From Shimia sp. R10_1 (GTDB lineage: Bacteria; Pseudomonadota; Alphaproteobacteria; Rhodobacterales; Rhodobacteraceae), in NCBI RefSeq assembly GCF_017744095.1, contig NZ_JAGHQX010000005.1, forward strand, positions 1-64,000: a DNA stretch of 64,000 nt. Direction: 5' to 3'. Made by a program: the position numbers and the translations under genes. The notes beneath the pieces are model-generated. The model searched no databases. It had not been told where the DNA came from and saw only the letters and a program-made list of their open reading frames with translations. Positions 1,091-63,262 of this stretch are shown here, in pieces. Numbering within the stretch: the stretch's first letter is position 1; every line of letters begins with the position of its first letter.

Positions 1091-2239
1091 TCACACGCCG
1101 TAGAGCTTCAGCATGGCACCCATGCGTTCGACCGCCAGATCGGGATCCCGCAGCAAGCCGCAACCGTCCGCCATTTTGAAGCAATCGGTGAAATAGGGCA
1201 GAGAGCGGGTCGATTGCGCACCGTTGAGCATGATGAAGTGGTCCTGAAACCCATTCAGCCAAGCGAGAAACACCACACCGGTTTTGTAGTACTGCGTGGG
1301 TGCGCGGAAGATATGGCGCGCCAGTGGCACAGTGGGATCCAGCGTGTCGCGGAAGCTGCGCGTATCGCCCTCGCTGAGTTTACTGACCGCATAGGCCGCC
1401 GCAGGAGCCAGCGGGTCAAAGATACCAAGCAGCGCGTGAGAATGCCCCTGCTCGTCGCCTTCGATGAGTTCGGGGTAGTTGAAATCATCGCCGGTGTACA
1501 TCTTGACGCCTTCGGGCAGGCGGCGGCGCAGCTGCACCTCTTTGTCGGCATCTAGCAGAGAGATCTTGATGCCATCGACCTTGGCGACATTGGCCTCAAT
1601 GATCTGCACCACCGTGTCCAGCGTATCGGCGAAATTGTCGCTGCCCCAGTAGCCTGCCAGCTGCGGGTCAAACATATCGCCAAGCCAGTGCAGAATCACC
1701 GGCTGGTCGCAGGCGTTCAGCACATCGGAATAGATGGTGATATAGTCTTCTGGGCTTTGCGCGACGCGTGCCAGCGCGCGCGAAGCCATGAGGATCAGGC
1801 GGCCACCGACGGCCTGAATGGCGTCAACCTGCTCCAGATAGGCGCGGCGCACATCGTCCAGATCACGCGCGTCAGCTGGATCGAGGTGATCTGTGCCGCA
1901 GCCATTGGCCACCAGGGCATCAGGCAGCTCTTCTTTGGTGCGGCGGATCAGTTCGAGCGCGCCGTTCCAATCCAGCCCCATGCCGCGCTGCGCGGTATCC
2001 ATTGCTTCGGCTATGCCCATGCCCATGCCCGCCAGATAGTGGCGAAACTCCATGGTTTTGTTCCAGTCCACCTTGGCGGGGCCGGTTGGATCATGATCGC
2101 CAAACGGATCAGAGACCACATGTGCCGCAGAATAGAGCACGCGGGCAGAGTTCTCTGTCAGTTTTGATGGGGTCACCGGGGTGCCGGTGAGCTGGTAGGG
2201 GTGCAACACACCTTGCGTGTCAGGCAGTTGAATTTTCAT
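1091..2239 (-). CDS. DUF993 family protein, dihydrodipicolinate synthase/aldolase-like
   Basis: This 382-residue protein resembles the DUF993 family, which is annotated as DHDPS-like and probably has an aldolase TIM-barrel fold. Visible segments include LVANGCGTDHL, QPVILHWLGDMFDPQLAGYWG and a central VDGIKISLLD, where the Lys is a plausible Schiff-base residue. A GAGG ribosome binding site precedes the ATG. The gene sits between the SDR gene (9 bp upstream) and the isomerase gene (4 bp downstream). A retro-aldol or dehydratase step on a keto-sugar-like intermediate is inferred from fold and neighbours only; I know of no defined reaction for the family. Confidence 0.75.
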   Translation of the reverse strand: MKIQLPDTQGVLHPYQLTGTPVTPSKLTENSARVLYSAAHVVSDPFGDHDPTGPAKVDWNKTMEFRHYLAGMGMGIAEAMDTAQRGMGLDWNGALELIRRTKEELPDALVANGCGTDHLDPADARDLDDVRRAYLEQVDAIQAVGGRLILMASRALARVAQSPEDYITIYSDVLNACDQPVILHWLGDMFDPQLAGYWGSDNFADTLDTVVQIIEANVAKVDGIKISLLDADKEVQLRRRLPEGVKMYTGDDFNYPELIEGDEQGHSHALLGIFDPLAPAAAYAVSKLSEGDTRSFRDTLDPTVPLARHIFRAPTQYYKTGVVFLAWLNGFQDHFIMLNGAQSTRSLPYFTDCFKMADGCGLLRDPDLAVERMGAMLKLYGV

Positions 2240-2248
2240 CAGAAGACC

Positions 2249-3019
2249 TCAGAAACGGGGCACAAGCATGCCGGCATCTGCCGAAATTGCCTGTCCGGTG
2301 GTGTAGGGGAGTTTGCCGCTGGCCAGGGAGGCGATGATGGCGCCCATGTCCTCTGGCTGGCCGACGCGCGGGAAGAGGGTGAGCCCGTCTTTGGCGCGCT
2401 GGTCATACATATCGATCACGGGTGCCGTCATTTCGGTGGCGATCAGCCCGGGCTGCACATCATAGACGGCGATGTTTTCCGCGCCCAATCGCACCGCGAA
2501 AGTTTTGGATACCATCGCGGCCGCCGCTTTTGAGGCGCAATATTCAGCGCGCGGCACGGCCACGGCAACAGCATTGGAGGAGGTGACATTGACGATGGCG
2601 TGAAACAGCGCTGTGTCGCGCTGGCGCGCGATCAGGCGTTTGGCAAAGGCTTGTGACAGAAAGAACATTGCCTTGGTGTTGACCGCCATGCAGCGGTCAT
2701 AGCTTTCTTCGGACACCTCCAGCAGATCGCCGCGTTGCAAGACGCCCACACCGGCATTGTTGACCAATGTGGTGAGCGGGCCGAGCTCTGCCTCGATGCG
2801 TGCCAGTTGGGCATCATGGGCGGAGAGGTCGGTCACATCAAAAGCACAGGCCATGGCAGGCACACCTTCGGCGCGTATCGCTTCGACGGCGCGGTTGAGC
2901 TCTGCGTCTTCGTGGGGACCGTTGACCGCGACGGCAAAGCCCTCGCGTGCCAAGGCTGTTGCCGCCGCAAGGCCGATCCCCCGGGAGGACCCTGTTACTA
3001 GTGCAACCTGTCGCGTCAT
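2249..3019 (-). CDS. SDR family NAD(P)-dependent oxidoreductase (3-ketoacyl reductase-like)
   Basis: This 256-residue classical short-chain dehydrogenase has the cofactor motif TGSSRGIG near the N-terminus, NNAG in the middle, catalytic Ser in VTSSNA and the YxxxK pair in EYCASKAA. It oxidises or reduces a hydroxyl/keto group. Annotation pipelines would call it FabG-like, but the catabolic setting argues against a fatty acid synthesis role. Its start overlaps the end of the acyl-CoA dehydrogenase gene (ATGA, 3016-3019), and AAAGGAG lies upstream of the ATG, so the two are translationally coupled. Confidence 0.85.
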   Translation of the reverse strand: MTRQVALVTGSSRGIGLAAATALAREGFAVAVNGPHEDAELNRAVEAIRAEGVPAMACAFDVTDLSAHDAQLARIEAELGPLTTLVNNAGVGVLQRGDLLEVSEESYDRCMAVNTKAMFFLSQAFAKRLIARQRDTALFHAIVNVTSSNAVAVAVPRAEYCASKAAAAMVSKTFAVRLGAENIAVYDVQPGLIATEMTAPVIDMYDQRAKDGLTLFPRVGQPEDMGAIIASLASGKLPYTTGQAISADAGMLVPRF

Positions 3020-4161
3020 GCCTGCGCTCCTTTCGCAACCAGTTCACGCGCAATGATCATGCGCTGAATCTGGTTTGTGCCCTCATAGATCTGGGTGATC
3101 TTAGCATCGCGATAGAGGCGTTCCACCTCAAAGCCGCGAATGTAGCCAGAGCCGCCAAAGACCTGCACTGCGTCGGCGGAGCGGGCCACGGCCATATCGC
3201 CCGCAAAGCATTTTGCGATGGAGCAGGCTTTGGTTGCATCCTGTCCCATATCGATCTTGTAGGCTGCGGATTGCACGAGAAGGCGCGCGGCCTCCACATC
3301 TTTGGCAATGTCAGCCAGAAGCCATTGTACACCCTGAAACTCAGAGATGGCTTTGTTGAACTGTTTGCGCTGTTGAGCATATTCGGTGGCGGCCTCAAGC
3401 CCGGCTTGACCGATGCCAACAGCCAGTGCGGCGATGCCGACGCGGCCTTTGTCGAGCACGCTCATCATCATATGGAAACCACGCCCTTCGACACCCAGAA
3501 GTGCATCTGCAGGCAGGCGGACTTCGTCAAAGGACAGGGGGCCCACCTGACTTGCGCGCTGGCCCATCTTGATTTCTTTGGGGCCGCGGGTGACGCCCGC
3601 TGCGTGTAGATCAACGATGAAGATCGACATGCCACGATGCCCGGCGTCTGGATCGGTGCGTGCCAGCACAAAGCCCACATCGGCCACAGGGGCATTGTGG
3701 ATCCAGATCTTCCCACCATTGAGTACCCAACCGTCACCGTCGCGCACGGCTGTGGTGCGAATGCCGGAGACATCTGTGCCTGCTTCTGGTTCGGTGATGC
3801 AGTAAGCAGGGCGCAGTTTGGCTGTGAGCAGATCGCCCATCCATTTGTCCCGTTGCGCTTCGGTGCCGTGACGGACAAGCAGGGTGGAGACCAGCTCCAG
3901 CAAACCGCATTGATCAGCCACAGAGGCATAACCGCGTGATAGCTCTTCCATCACCAAGGCATAGGTCACAGTGTCAAAACCCGGTCCGCCCATTTCTTCG
4001 GGTACGCCGATGCCAAACAGGCCCAATTCTCCCATCTGGTCATAGATTTCGGCCGGGAATCGCGAATCGCGATCCAGTTCTTCAGCAAGGGGGCGGATGA
4101 CCTCCTGGGCAAATTGCCGGGTCATATCACGTACTTGTTCATGTGTTTCCGTCAGAAACAT
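3016..4161 (-). CDS. Acyl-CoA dehydrogenase
   Basis: This 381-residue protein has the standard acyl-CoA dehydrogenase length and layout: an all-alpha N-terminal domain, a beta domain with AYCITEPEAGTDVSG and WIHNAP, and a C-terminal helical domain. IYEGTNQIQR near the end carries the likely catalytic base, Glu360. It introduces an alpha,beta double bond into an acyl-CoA and passes electrons to ETF, whose beta subunit is the last gene of this operon in the window. It is the first gene of the minus-strand operon. A perfect GTAAC-N6-GTTAC palindrome lies 26 bp upstream of its start codon. Substrate chain type is unknown. Confidence 0.9.
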   Translation of the reverse strand: MFLTETHEQVRDMTRQFAQEVIRPLAEELDRDSRFPAEIYDQMGELGLFGIGVPEEMGGPGFDTVTYALVMEELSRGYASVADQCGLLELVSTLLVRHGTEAQRDKWMGDLLTAKLRPAYCITEPEAGTDVSGIRTTAVRDGDGWVLNGGKIWIHNAPVADVGFVLARTDPDAGHRGMSIFIVDLHAAGVTRGPKEIKMGQRASQVGPLSFDEVRLPADALLGVEGRGFHMMMSVLDKGRVGIAALAVGIGQAGLEAATEYAQQRKQFNKAISEFQGVQWLLADIAKDVEAARLLVQSAAYKIDMGQDATKACSIAKCFAGDMAVARSADAVQVFGGSGYIRGFEVERLYRDAKITQIYEGTNQIQRMIIARELVAKGAQA

Positions 4162-59095: not shown

Positions 59096-59203
59096 GCCTT
59101 GATATGTGGATTTCCCAAACGTTGCTTGATTTTGCGCCTGACACATTGGGCGCAGATCCCAGAATGTAAAAATCAGTCTGAAAATATGCTTTTGGATTAT
59201 TGG

Positions 59204-59219
59204 TTAAGGGTTCTTTAAC
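59204..59219. promoter_or_regulatory. CtrA-type binding site
   Basis: TTAAGGGTTCTTTAAC matches the full CtrA consensus TTAA-N7-TTAAC exactly and is itself part of the inverted repeat GGTTAA-N7-TTAACC. It lies 54 bp upstream of the hybrid histidine kinase gene. CtrA is an alphaproteobacterial response regulator of motility, cell cycle and surface functions. Confidence 0.75.
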
Positions 59220-59273
59220 CACTCAGTGCCACTCACAAGGCAGTGAACAAAACAACTTATTGCTGATCCAAAC

Positions 59274-61130
59274 ATGGCTCGACTGCGCACGACAAAGCGA
59301 ATTTTGCGCCTACGAAGTGGGGTTGCGCTGAGCATTTTGCTGGTCGCATCCATTGCAGCCATGTGGATCGTGTTGGCCGGCCGCGAGGCGGTTGCAACCC
59401 AAACGCGCAATACGACCTGTATTGATACGATCCTTTTGTCTTTGTCTGAAATGGCAATCGCGCTGCATCAGATTGAGGATGCGGACAACGTCTATCGCGT
59501 TAGCGCGTTCGAAAGCCAAATCCGGCAGGCGGTGGTTGCGGCCGACGAAGCCCACACCGCGCTATCTGACGAAAAAGGGGTGAACGCGTTCTCTCCTGCG
59601 GCCCAGGATATTCTGCGGCAGGCAACGTTCAACCCGCTGCAGGAACTTTCTGAAGTCATCTCCTTGGCGGAAATCGTGGTCGATCCGGCTGAAGTCGACG
59701 AAGCAACTCACACAGCGGCCAATCTTGCATCAGACTTGGCATACCGATTGATGCCATTCTTTGATCGCATCCGGCAATATGAACTGGAAGCGGCGGAGGT
59801 GATTGCAGATCGCCAAGTCATTTATGGCGCGGCCGCGTTGCTGGTGTCTCTCTGTGGGGTGGTGTTTGCCGCCCTTTTTGCGCACCTCCCCATGGAACAA
59901 TATGTGTTGAACGCCCAGCGCGATATTGAACGCAGTCAGCGGGCCGCCGAAGCTGCTTCTGAGGCAAAAACGATGTTTCTGGCGACAATGAGCCACGAGA
60001 TCCGAACGCCGTTGAACGGTGTGTTGGGATTGGCAGATGTGTTATCCGACACCAAGCTGGATCCCGACCAACGGCGCATGCTGGGGATGATTTCGAGCAG
60101 CGGCAACAACCTGTTGCAGATGATCAATGACATCTTAGACCTTGCAAAACTTGAGGCCGGCAAAACCTCTCTTGAGTTTGTAGATTTTGATCTGGAAATG
60201 GTATGTCGGGAGACAACAGAACTTTTTTCCGGTCAGGCAGTGCGCCGGAACGTGCGTTTGAACGTGGAGTCGGCACATTCAGAGGCTGGGTGGTACCTGC
60301 ACGGAGCTCAAGGAGCCGTTCGGCAAATTTTGAGCAATCTGGTAGGCAATGCGGTCAAGTTTACGGAAAACGGGACTGTTTCTGTCCGACTTGAAGATGT
60401 GCCGGGACCGGAAGGCGCACCAAGATTTGTGCGTCTGTCCGTAAGAGATGAGGGTATTGGCATTTCTCCGGATTCTCTGAAACGCATTTTTGATCAGTTT
60501 GAACAGGCAGATGCCTCCACAACAACCCGGTTTGGGGGCACAGGGCTTGGGTTGGCCATTGTGAAGCACTTGACGGAAACGATGAATGGTCACGTGCAAG
60601 TGAGCAGCGTTGTGGATGAAGGGTCTGAGTTTTCCTTGGTCTTCCCCGTTGCAAAAGCCTTGGCGCGCAAACAGGCGTCCAAAACGCAATTTACCAGCAC
60701 ATTTGATAAACGTGTGCTTGTGGCCGATGATAACAAAGTCAATCAAATGGTGGCACAAAAGCTGCTGCAGAAACTTGGGTGCGATGTGCAACTTGCAAGC
60801 AACGGGCTTGAGGCTGTGAACAAGGCGAGATCGTGGGCCCCCGACCTGATCTTGATGGATGTGCGCATGCCCGTCATGGATGGTTTGCAGGCCACACGTG
60901 CCATCCGCATGGATGCATCCATACCCGGCTCCGCTACTCTGCCAATCGTTGGGCTCTCAGCAAACACACGAGGCGAACATGAGGAGGCAATAGCCTCCGT
61001 AGGAATGAGTGGGTATTTGCACAAACCAATCAATCGCGAAGCCCTTGTGGCAGAGTTGATGCGGCATTGGACAACAGAAGATGCAGACGGCTTAGATCCG
61101 AATGATCTGCCTAGCGGCTTAAGCGCGTGA
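59274..61130 (+). CDS. Hybrid sensor histidine kinase/response regulator
   Basis: This 618-residue membrane kinase has transmembrane segments at about 16-36 and 182-204, a mostly helical periplasmic region between them, a HisKA domain with His241 in MSHEIRTPLNG, an ATPase domain (SNLVGNAVKFTENG, FGGTGLGLAIVK) and a receiver domain with phospho-acceptor Asp529 in LMDVRMPVMDG. The periplasmic part has no named sensor fold that I recognise. Its stop overlaps the start of a periplasmic binding-protein gene (GTGA). The output protein is not encoded next to it. Confidence 0.9.
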   Translation: MARLRTTKRILRLRSGVALSILLVASIAAMWIVLAGREAVATQTRNTTCIDTILLSLSEMAIALHQIEDADNVYRVSAFESQIRQAVVAADEAHTALSDEKGVNAFSPAAQDILRQATFNPLQELSEVISLAEIVVDPAEVDEATHTAANLASDLAYRLMPFFDRIRQYELEAAEVIADRQVIYGAAALLVSLCGVVFAALFAHLPMEQYVLNAQRDIERSQRAAEAASEAKTMFLATMSHEIRTPLNGVLGLADVLSDTKLDPDQRRMLGMISSSGNNLLQMINDILDLAKLEAGKTSLEFVDFDLEMVCRETTELFSGQAVRRNVRLNVESAHSEAGWYLHGAQGAVRQILSNLVGNAVKFTENGTVSVRLEDVPGPEGAPRFVRLSVRDEGIGISPDSLKRIFDQFEQADASTTTRFGGTGLGLAIVKHLTETMNGHVQVSSVVDEGSEFSLVFPVAKALARKQASKTQFTSTFDKRVLVADDNKVNQMVAQKLLQKLGCDVQLASNGLEAVNKARSWAPDLILMDVRMPVMDGLQATRAIRMDASIPGSATLPIVGLSANTRGEHEEAIASVGMSGYLHKPINREALVAELMRHWTTEDADGLDPNDLPSGLSA

Positions 61131-62218
61131 GATTTTTAGGGATACGCTGGGCCTCGCTGCTGATAGTTGGCCTATTGCTGCCTTTGCCAGCACTGTCAGA
61201 GGATGTGCCTGCAACGCTTTATTCTTGGCGCGGCAGCGTCCCGCAGGATGTTTTTGACAGATATACTGAGGTCTATGGAGAGGATCTGATTGTAGACAGC
61301 TTCATGGCTGCCGATGAAGCCGAAGCCCGTCTTGCGCTTAAAGACGCGCCTTACGACTTGGCGGTTTTGCCGATTGAAGTCGTTCCGCGATTGTTGGCGA
61401 ACAACACACTTCAGCCTGTGAAGACCCAAGTTGCGGCGCTGAAGGATGTCGCCCCGACACTTCATTTGGATGTGTTCGACGCACTGCTGCCCGATGTGTC
61501 CGATTATGTTGTGCCCTATCTTTGGGGATCGACAGGGATGATCATTGATGTGCCAGCAGTGCGTGCACGCCTTCCGAATGCGCCGCTAGACAGTTGGTCG
61601 TTGCTGTTTGACTCAAAGAACGCGGAGGCGCTCGCCGATTGTGGCATCTCGATTGTAAACTCCTCGCAAGAGGTTCTTGCGCTGACATTGAGTTATCTGG
61701 GCAAAGATCCCAATCGGTTTTCAGAGGAAGCTTTGGATGCGGCTTTCGGGACCCTTTCGCAAGTTATGCCCTATGTCAGCAGCATCAGTGATCTGCACTA
61801 CAGCAAACTCAGGAACGGCGAAGTCTGTATCGCCCTTGTTTGGAGTGTGCCTGGGGTGGCGCCAAAAATAGAGGGCTTTGGGGAGCAATACACCTATGTG
61901 CTCCCCAAAGAGGGGGCAATCATGTGGTCCAACGTGCTGGTCGCTCCTCGGAAAAGAGAGCCATCCGCCCATCTCCAACAGCTGTTGTCGTTCGTTTTGT
62001 CAGAAGAGGTCTTTGAACGCCTGGCCGCGCATTCCTTTGCGTCGATGTCGCCTTTCGGCGAAGACGTCGCGCTGTCGCCGATGCAACACATGCTGAAGGC
62101 GGAAATTTTCCCAACCAATCAAATGCAGAGACTCTTTATGCTAGAGCCGCTCACCGGAGCGCAGAAACACGATCTCGACACAAGATGGCGGCGGCTGCAG
62201 ATCGGTCGATATCAGTAA
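61127..62218 (+). CDS. PotD-like periplasmic solute-binding protein coupled to the histidine kinase
   Basis: This 363-residue protein has a signal peptide (WASLLIVGLLLPLPALS) and a PotD/PotF-like fold: ATLYSWRGSVPQDVFDRYTE, YDLAVLPIEVVPRLLANN, DYVVPYLWGSTGMIIDV and GEVCIALVWSVPG. GTG 61127 overlaps the kinase stop. No permease or ATPase genes are beside it, so it may present a ligand to the kinase rather than serve transport. It overlaps the convergent gene by 7 bp. Confidence 0.82.
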   Translation: MRFLGIRWASLLIVGLLLPLPALSEDVPATLYSWRGSVPQDVFDRYTEVYGEDLIVDSFMAADEAEARLALKDAPYDLAVLPIEVVPRLLANNTLQPVKTQVAALKDVAPTLHLDVFDALLPDVSDYVVPYLWGSTGMIIDVPAVRARLPNAPLDSWSLLFDSKNAEALADCGISIVNSSQEVLALTLSYLGKDPNRFSEEALDAAFGTLSQVMPYVSSISDLHYSKLRNGEVCIALVWSVPGVAPKIEGFGEQYTYVLPKEGAIMWSNVLVAPRKREPSAHLQQLLSFVLSEEVFERLAAHSFASMSPFGEDVALSPMQHMLKAEIFPTNQMQRLFMLEPLTGAQKHDLDTRWRRLQIGRYQ

Positions 62219-62976
62219 GCGGTGGGCCCTTCGGCTTTGTTCAGAAGGACGCCGAGTATTGGTTTGACGCCAGAAAAGATCCGTTCGACCTTCTCCAACT
62301 CCTCGGCCGTTGACACACCGCCGCCTGCCACCAACAGGACCGCGTCCACATTGGGCAAAAAGCCGAGAACATCGTCAAACTCCAAGGCCGGCGGCATATC
62401 AAACAGCATCACATCGGCGCAGAGCGTCTCTTCCAGCTCTTCCAACACAGAGGTGATCATTTCTGTTTGAAACAATTCCGCAGAGTTGTCTTCCGGGCGA
62501 TCGTTCAGCGCCAAAGCCAGATTGGGTGCAGCTTTCACCAGAAAGTTCTCAGGTGCGATCACGCCGCTTAAATAGTCCGCCATTGTGTCGTGGGCGGTCA
62601 GCCCCAGTGTTTTGTCCAGACTGGGGGCGCGGAGGTCTAAATCCAGCAAAACGGTCCGCACCGAGTTCAGACGTGCCAAGGCGAATGCCAGATTGGCGGA
62701 GACAAAACTGCTTCCGCAACCACGCGTCGGCGCCGTGACCGCCACGCGACTCCAGCCATGTTCGTTGAGTGCCTGCAGCATGCGTGTGCGCAGCATGTCA
62801 AATGCGGCATGGGCCGGGTGGCTGCGTGATGCACTGATGATATGGTTTTGCGCCAAAACAGCATCGTCCACCGCGGCCACGCTGAGGTTGTTCCAGAACA
62901 CCTCTGGATCCTGTAATGCAGGCAGGCTGTCCGCGGGCTCACAGTCCGCTTCGATTTTGGTGTGCTCGTGTTTCAT
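62212..62976 (-). CDS. CpsD/BY-kinase-like polysaccharide biosynthesis ATPase with altered P-loop
   Basis: This 254-residue protein has the MinD-like fold of CpsD/CapB tyrosine kinases: SANLAFALARLNSVRTVLLDLDLRAP (Walker A'), VMLFDMPPALEFDD (Walker B) and VDAVLLVAGGGVSTAEELE. Its P-loop reads APTRGCGSSFV, with Ser where the invariant Lys of GKS/T stands, and there is no Tyr cluster at the C-terminus. It may be a non-kinase regulator of exopolysaccharide export. ATG 62976 lacks a good ribosome binding site. Confidence 0.78.
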   Translation of the reverse strand: MKHEHTKIEADCEPADSLPALQDPEVFWNNLSVAAVDDAVLAQNHIISASRSHPAHAAFDMLRTRMLQALNEHGWSRVAVTAPTRGCGSSFVSANLAFALARLNSVRTVLLDLDLRAPSLDKTLGLTAHDTMADYLSGVIAPENFLVKAAPNLALALNDRPEDNSAELFQTEMITSVLEELEETLCADVMLFDMPPALEFDDVLGFLPNVDAVLLVAGGGVSTAEELEKVERIFSGVKPILGVLLNKAEGPTAY

Positions 62977-63262
62977 GGCGCAATTGTACCGTCTGTTTGG
63001 CAAAGAATTTATCAATCCAAACCGGTCAAAAGAAAGGCGGCATTGCGGAGATTGGGCGTCTCTTTCGCATAGGATCTACCTGAAAGGCTCTGTGCAGCCT
63101 TTATTGGTCTGAGATTTGTCGCCATGTCACTTCTTCCCGCGGGAGATATCGGTTCCTTATGGTTTTAGTCTGATACACTGGACATGGACCTCAAGCATAG
63201 ATAATCAAACACAAACTGCCCAGCCAATCAAAGCCAAGCAGCGTAGATATCGGGAGTATCAC

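Follow-up and report, generated by a model that had tools for sequence, protein, structure and literature searches.

The locus lies in a 64-kb window, by which is meant the whole stretch of DNA that was analysed, and consists of two overlapping genes on the forward strand, for a hybrid histidine kinase and a PotF-like solute-binding protein, together with a leader that carries a CtrA-type box and a second short motif. The features, with their positions in the window, are the following:

59204-59219, forward strand: CtrA-type box TTAAGGGTTCTTTAAC, a perfect TTAA-N7-TTAAC, kept in ten of ten orthologous loci
59228-59232, forward strand: second invariant leader motif TGnCA (TGCCA in the window), 8 nt past the last A of the box, with T132, G133, C135 and A136 invariant in nine aligned leaders
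59274-61130, forward strand: hybrid histidine kinase of 618 aa, with HisKA, HATPase_c and Response_reg over the Pfam cut-offs
61127-62218, forward strand: PotF-like solute-binding protein of 363 aa, with SBP_bac_8 and SBP_bac_6 over cut-off and a signal-peptide-like N-terminus (by eye)

The stop codon of the kinase (TGA, 61128-61130) and the start codon of the binding protein (GTG, 61127) share 4 nt, and the stop-start overlap described in the original prediction is thus confirmed. The word "fused" used there is loose, these being two genes that overlap. The second product had been called PotD-like; the best NCBIfam model is, however, PotF (115.9 bits, cut-off 636), ahead of PotD (78.8 bits, cut-off 582), so that "PotF-like" is the better term, with neither equivalog cut-off reached. 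The structural model of the binding protein has the PotF fold, with Z 29.9 to a PotF variant (rmsd 4.2, 310 aligned). The mature protein would comprise about residues 25-363.

The kinase is laid out as two membrane helices flanking a helical periplasmic sensor, which spans about residues 37-180, followed by HisKA, HATPase_c and receiver domains, and a domain search found no Hpt domain in it. Its core scores best with the TorS model (339.6 bits, below the cut-off of 676.5), the match being confined to the kinase and receiver part. The motif SHEIRTP is present in all 16 aligned kinases, with the remaining kinase and receiver motifs intact by eye. The sensor, modelled by AlphaFold from one sequence (pLDDT 77, the other four models reaching 41-56), is all helical. 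Structure comparison of this model listed chemoreceptor ligand domains (PcaY_PP, Z 13.2), the sensor kinase Adeh_2942 (Z 11.6) and the LytS sensor of the XylFII-LytSN complex (Z 11.4), beside which stand unrelated and designed bundles; since helical bundles below about Z 13 may share arrangement only, these matches support a class of fold at most. The sensor domains of TorS and LuxQ were not among the 50 matches listed, which is not evidence against them. A PDB search with the sensor profile gave 0 matches and Foldseek with the sensor model gave none at E 0.001 or better. A Pfam search on 16 sensor parts returned no family for the window sensor; it returned eight families across the set, each in at most two members, the best sensor family being HBM (0.019) in one member.

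That no transporter genes follow the pair, as had been noted from the sequence, was corroborated: the gene that follows, at 62212-63015, is convergently oriented, and its similarity to polysaccharide tyrosine autokinases scores below the cut-offs. The genes upstream look like a thiamine-precursor transporter, with an NMT1/THI5-like binding protein and a permease (Pfam), and with an ATPase, a TenA-like and a ThiG-like gene named by eye. Another PotF is encoded elsewhere in the genome and is followed by an ATPase and two permease genes (by eye), the arrangement of a transporter.

Distribution and inheritance of the two genes

Orthologs of the binding protein, taken at an identity of at least 35%, are present in 13 of the 25 genus genomes, where they make up 16 complete loci and a fragment; rows below this threshold were treated as transporter-type, the neighbours being checked for L039, L040 and L041 only. 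The N-terminal part of the kinase, searched alone, was found in the same 13 genomes, and neither gene is present in the other 12 (a weak kinase row, G000:C11 at 9.2e-4, was left out). In each of the 16 complete loci the binding-protein gene has a start codon from which it overlaps the end of the kinase gene by 4 or 10 nt, such start codons having been taken instead of later ones in L028, L037 and L038. Shared presence and constant overlap lend support to the predicted sensing pair, in which the two products would act together. The trees of the kinase and the binding protein contain several weak inner nodes and agree on the main groups, with a Leisingera copy placed differently in the two.

Within the genus the complete loci form clade A (nine loci, the window included) and its sister, clade B (seven loci). 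The nine clade-A loci have common surroundings, with thiamine-type genes 5' and polysaccharide-type genes 3'. Clade-B pairs lie at other genomic places, and the neighbouring polysaccharide-type genes are therefore a mere lead to the regulated genes. Three of the clade-B pairs (L036-L038) come after an rplA-like gene (by eye).

Conservation of the pair across the Rhodobacteraceae, which had been listed as a check, did not hold and is rejected: the sensor was detected in 2 of 392 family genomes from other genera (at most seven candidates per genome scored). A plasmid of Leisingera methylohalidivorans nevertheless carries both kinase and binding protein, overlapping by 10 nt, so that single strains outside the genus have the pair. 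A PotF-like gene adjoins the sensor in both of the out-of-genus genomes; in L110 both genes are cut by contig ends, and in L109 (115-1320, reverse strand, and 1465-3657, forward strand) the sensor forms part of a PAS-PAS-GGDEF protein whose gene and the PotF-like gene are divergent, an arrangement that is possibly a bridge to NspS-MbaA-type systems. An exception to pairing is found on the Parasedimentitalea marina plasmid pW43B (L119:8917-9999), where the gene of a closely related binding protein lacks a kinase neighbour. Among 23 more distant relatives, transporter genes lie nearby in 21 and the kinase sensor in none. A PotF-like gene of Stutzerimonas stutzeri (L082:6001-7017) is another orphan of this family: it has no potGHI-type genes with it, and the gene after it has an end that, by eye, is chemoreceptor-like.

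The box in the operon leader

The perfect TTAA-N7-TTAAC that had been placed 54 bp before the hybrid kinase was found again at 59204-59219, with 54 nt between it and the ATG at 59274. It is the single such place in the window, against 0.04 expected from 100 shuffles; when one mismatch is allowed the window total is 3 against 3.17 expected, which is chance level. The site is also matched on the opposite strand (59203-59218), forming in the window a near-palindrome, GGTTAA...TTAACC.

Its conservation is positional. TTAA-N7-TTAA stands 55-59 bp upstream of the kinase ATG in all nine complete clade-A loci, and 56 bp upstream in a tenth, G020:C97, which is truncated by a contig end and whose binding protein is taken to be the fragment G020:C117. 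The final C of the full pattern is kept in nine of these ten loci and replaced by G in L024. The upstream permease, searched for separately, is present in 14 of the 25 genomes, and the box is absent from all four genomes in which this permease occurs without the pair after it (permease identity about 80% in two of these controls and about 60% in the other two). When the nine clade-A leaders are aligned (mean identity 53%), all eight TTAA bases and a 3' CA are invariant, the further invariant columns being the four fixed letters of TGnCA, G39 and A164. When the 200-bp leaders were dinucleotide-shuffled 300 times each, no locus gave such a box in more than 1.7% of the shuffles; given this figure, the conserved place and the 0.04 expected in the window, a chance site is rejected. 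The ten loci are related by descent, and the box accordingly represents one history and not ten independent events. Genome-wide the perfect pattern shows no enrichment, with 15 matches where a reversed-pattern control has 33, so that the case for the box rests on conservation, not on counts.

The full box is absent from the seven clade-B loci; L036, L037 and L038 have a TTAAC half-site starting 58-59 bp upstream of the kinase, which is close to the corresponding clade-A distance of 59-63 bp. A promoter scan 3' of the box found nothing convincing. In the leader of L025, a long AT-rich inverted repeat, TCATCACAAAG ... CTTTGTGATGA, lies upstream of the box.

TTAA-N7-TTAAC is the consensus that has been used for predicting CtrA sites in Dinoroseobacter (PMC4046655). 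The genome of the window encodes CtrA (428.8 bits, cut-off 350) and one ChpT-type protein (75.1 bits, cut-off 22.9), and contains six Hpt-domain matches, five of them over cut-off and two in short open frames. At the ctrA locus there are two one-mismatch boxes against 0.45 expected, a weak signal. Elsewhere in the genome, perfect boxes occur at 12 distinct places, before mixed genes. By eye, those at G000:C39:3204 (L073), G000:C38:53755 (L071) and G000:C32:214472 (L066) lie near a large membrane sensor-like protein, a sugar-transferase-like protein and a ribonucleotide-reductase-like protein, respectively.

Taken together, the box in ten of ten loci and none of four pairless controls, and the presence of CtrA and a ChpT-type protein, favour the predicted wiring into the CtrA network, and the conservation of the site hints at control of the pair by this cell-cycle regulator, which would bind at the box. 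A regulator other than CtrA, such as a dimer reading a palindrome, could be imagined from the near-palindromic form of the window site, from the second invariant motif TGnCA that follows the box and is unexplained, and from the missing genome-wide enrichment. The aligned leaders, however, keep the 3' CA invariant and not the 5' GG, so that the palindrome is not the conserved feature, and a palindrome-reading regulator is rejected as first choice; the N7 spacing is moreover identical across the ten loci, and the pattern is the Dinoroseobacter consensus cited above. A reader of the box other than CtrA is for these reasons considered unlikely.

The ligand pocket and its divergence

In PotF, S38, D39 and D247 have been assigned to the proximal amine site, E185 and D278 are among the distal-site residues, and W37, W244 and F276 make up an aromatic box (PMC8666671). 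D39, E185, D247, D278 and R254 are at least 96% conserved across 250 PotF-type sequences, and the variant S38T/D39E/D247S is reported not to bind putrescine (PMC8666671). The transporter-type PotF encoded elsewhere in the genome has all four acids. Among the pair proteins the number of pocket acids is graded by group, with four in the sister clade (in the seven proteins of clade B, position 39 is D or E and position 247 is E, with E185 and D278 present), three in six clade-A proteins (N at 39, the others kept), two in L025 (A at 39, T at 247) and one in the window protein and L024. In the Leisingera protein G replaces the acid at 39, and the remaining three acids are present. In the window protein and L024, position 38 is R, position 39 is G or A, position 247 is P or V and position 278 is N, whereas E185, the one acid left in the window protein, and the aromatic box (W37, W244, W at 276) are retained; position 247 is the least certain of these, since loop 242-249 of the model is below pLDDT 50. 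R254 is missing in every pair protein, sister clade included, and the whole group thus departs somewhat from transporter PotF. Relative to PotF and SpuD, the window protein shares the fold, the family, the aromatic box and E185, whereas D39, D247, D278 and R254 are gone, an Arg stands at the place of S38 and no transporter adjoins.

The polyamine ligand implied by the original prediction is therefore not upheld: with D39, D247 and D278 lost and Arg at S38, the ligand in the window species is probably no longer putrescine or spermidine. Since the proximal site is dismantled and carries an Arg, and distal E185 and the aromatic box are kept, a zwitterion, for example an omega-amino acid, would fit better. 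That the window protein may bind one is put forward tentatively, by analogy with two SBP_bac_8 proteins of P. aeruginosa, PA0602 and PA4985, which are encoded near the kinases AgtS and AruS, were once predicted to be polyamine binders and prefer GABA and 5-aminovalerate (PMC11113362). It is doubtful that the protein is a polyamine sensor after all, receiving putrescine, spermidine or a longer polyamine in a re-shaped pocket in the manner of NspS-MbaA. PotF is admittedly its nearest relative by sequence and fold, E185 and the three tryptophans remain, the sister-clade proteins have acids at all four places, and NspS of S. meliloti takes part in polyamine responses although some of the residues implicated in its Vibrio counterpart are different (PMC9993111); the loss of the acids at 39, 247 and 278 with Arg for S38 in the window protein and L024, and the failure of the triple PotF variant to bind putrescine (PMC8666671), nonetheless weigh against a polyamine.

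The binding protein and the kinase sensor have also diverged rapidly. When the window is compared with its nearest relative, L024, the binding protein shows a dN of 0.561, the kinase sensor one of 0.372 and the kinase core one of 0.233, as against 0.175 for the flanking tyrosine-kinase-like gene and 0.020-0.100 for five upstream genes; dN was used because in several distant pairs dS had reached saturation or could not be computed. For the binding protein in five closer clade-A pairs, dN is 0.069-0.170 with dS of 0.84-2.31, indicating purifying selection. In these pairs it is not always ahead of its neighbours, being exceeded by thiX and thiZ between L026 and L028, and the excess therefore lies mainly in the window, L024 and L025 lineages, which are those losing most pocket acids.

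A further possibility is that the binding protein belongs to a transporter whose permease gene lies elsewhere, and is merely co-translated with the kinase, which would sense its own ligand directly. PA0602 and PA4985, whose genes, like the one described here, place an SBP_bac_8 protein beside a sensor kinase, were not found to contact AgtS or AruS, so that neighbouring genes of this kind need not cooperate (PMC11113362); the pW43B plasmid has the binding protein without the kinase, and the sensor model is similar to chemoreceptor domains in which small ligands are bound directly. Transport is nevertheless judged improbable here, as the two genes have the same distribution over 25 genomes, the locus is without transporter genes, and kinase sensor and binding protein both change fast relative to the flanking genes. 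Comparably improbable is a receptor caught midway through a change of ligand at a fixed locus, to which the fast divergence and stepwise pocket loss would belong, along with the absence of the full CtrA box from the sister clade; here the kinase, being without its own Hpt, would feed ChpT, and a zwitterion from outside would thereby act back on CtrA.

Known systems and a proposed mechanism

In TorT-TorS and LuxP-LuxQ, signalling to the sensor kinase starts with a periplasmic binding protein. AioX-AioS likewise comprises a binding protein and a sensor kinase (PMC5908839). The present pair follows the logic of all three, a periplasmic binding protein paired with a sensor kinase, and TorS supplies the best model for the kinase core, its cut-off being missed; unlike them, it has a binding protein of PotF type, no receiver-Hpt tail and no linked response regulator seen at the locus. 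Another related system is NspS-MbaA of Vibrio cholerae and Sinorhizobium meliloti, in which a PotD/PotF-related, non-transport binding protein is encoded by a gene overlapping that of a membrane receptor, the periplasmic part of MbaA-type receptors lying between two membrane helices (PMC9993111). The pair shares with it a PotF-related binding protein whose gene overlaps that of a two-helix membrane receptor with a periplasmic part, and the L109 relative places the sensor on a PAS-PAS-GGDEF protein beside a PotF-like gene. The output differs (GGDEF-EAL in NspS-MbaA, HisKA, HATPase_c and Response_reg here), the receptor gene comes first here, and the pocket acids have been lost. In its logic the pair is like NspS-MbaA, the output being a kinase. 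No paper on the kinase/binding-protein pair was recognised in open-access PMC, which does not disprove that one exists.

The reading preferred here, to which a probability of roughly 0.55 is given, is that of a binding-protein-dependent sensor pair under a CtrA box, with a ligand that is probably neither putrescine nor spermidine; CtrA binding, docking, relay partner and ligand class are its predicted parts. The PotF-derived protein would catch a small periplasmic ligand and, once liganded, dock on the membrane-bound hybrid kinase at its helical sensor, shifting the balance between kinase and phosphatase. From the receiver of the kinase, phosphate would be handed to a separate phosphotransferase, either ChpT or one of two small Hpt proteins, encoded at G000:C22:467800 and G000:C11:849777, and from there to an unlinked response regulator. 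The gene overlap may couple production of the two partners, and through the box in the operon leader CtrA would set the timing of sensor production.

A binding protein that drives a hybrid kinase under a conserved CtrA box would link an outside chemical to the CtrA network of the Rhodobacterales, and, should the receptor indeed be changing its ligand and acting back on CtrA, a chemical cue would be tied to motility and cell differentiation. Close species that have lost the polyamine pocket to different degrees make up a natural series in which to follow ligand change in a binding protein, and the labels "spermidine/putrescine-binding" given to orphan PotF-like proteins may mislead.
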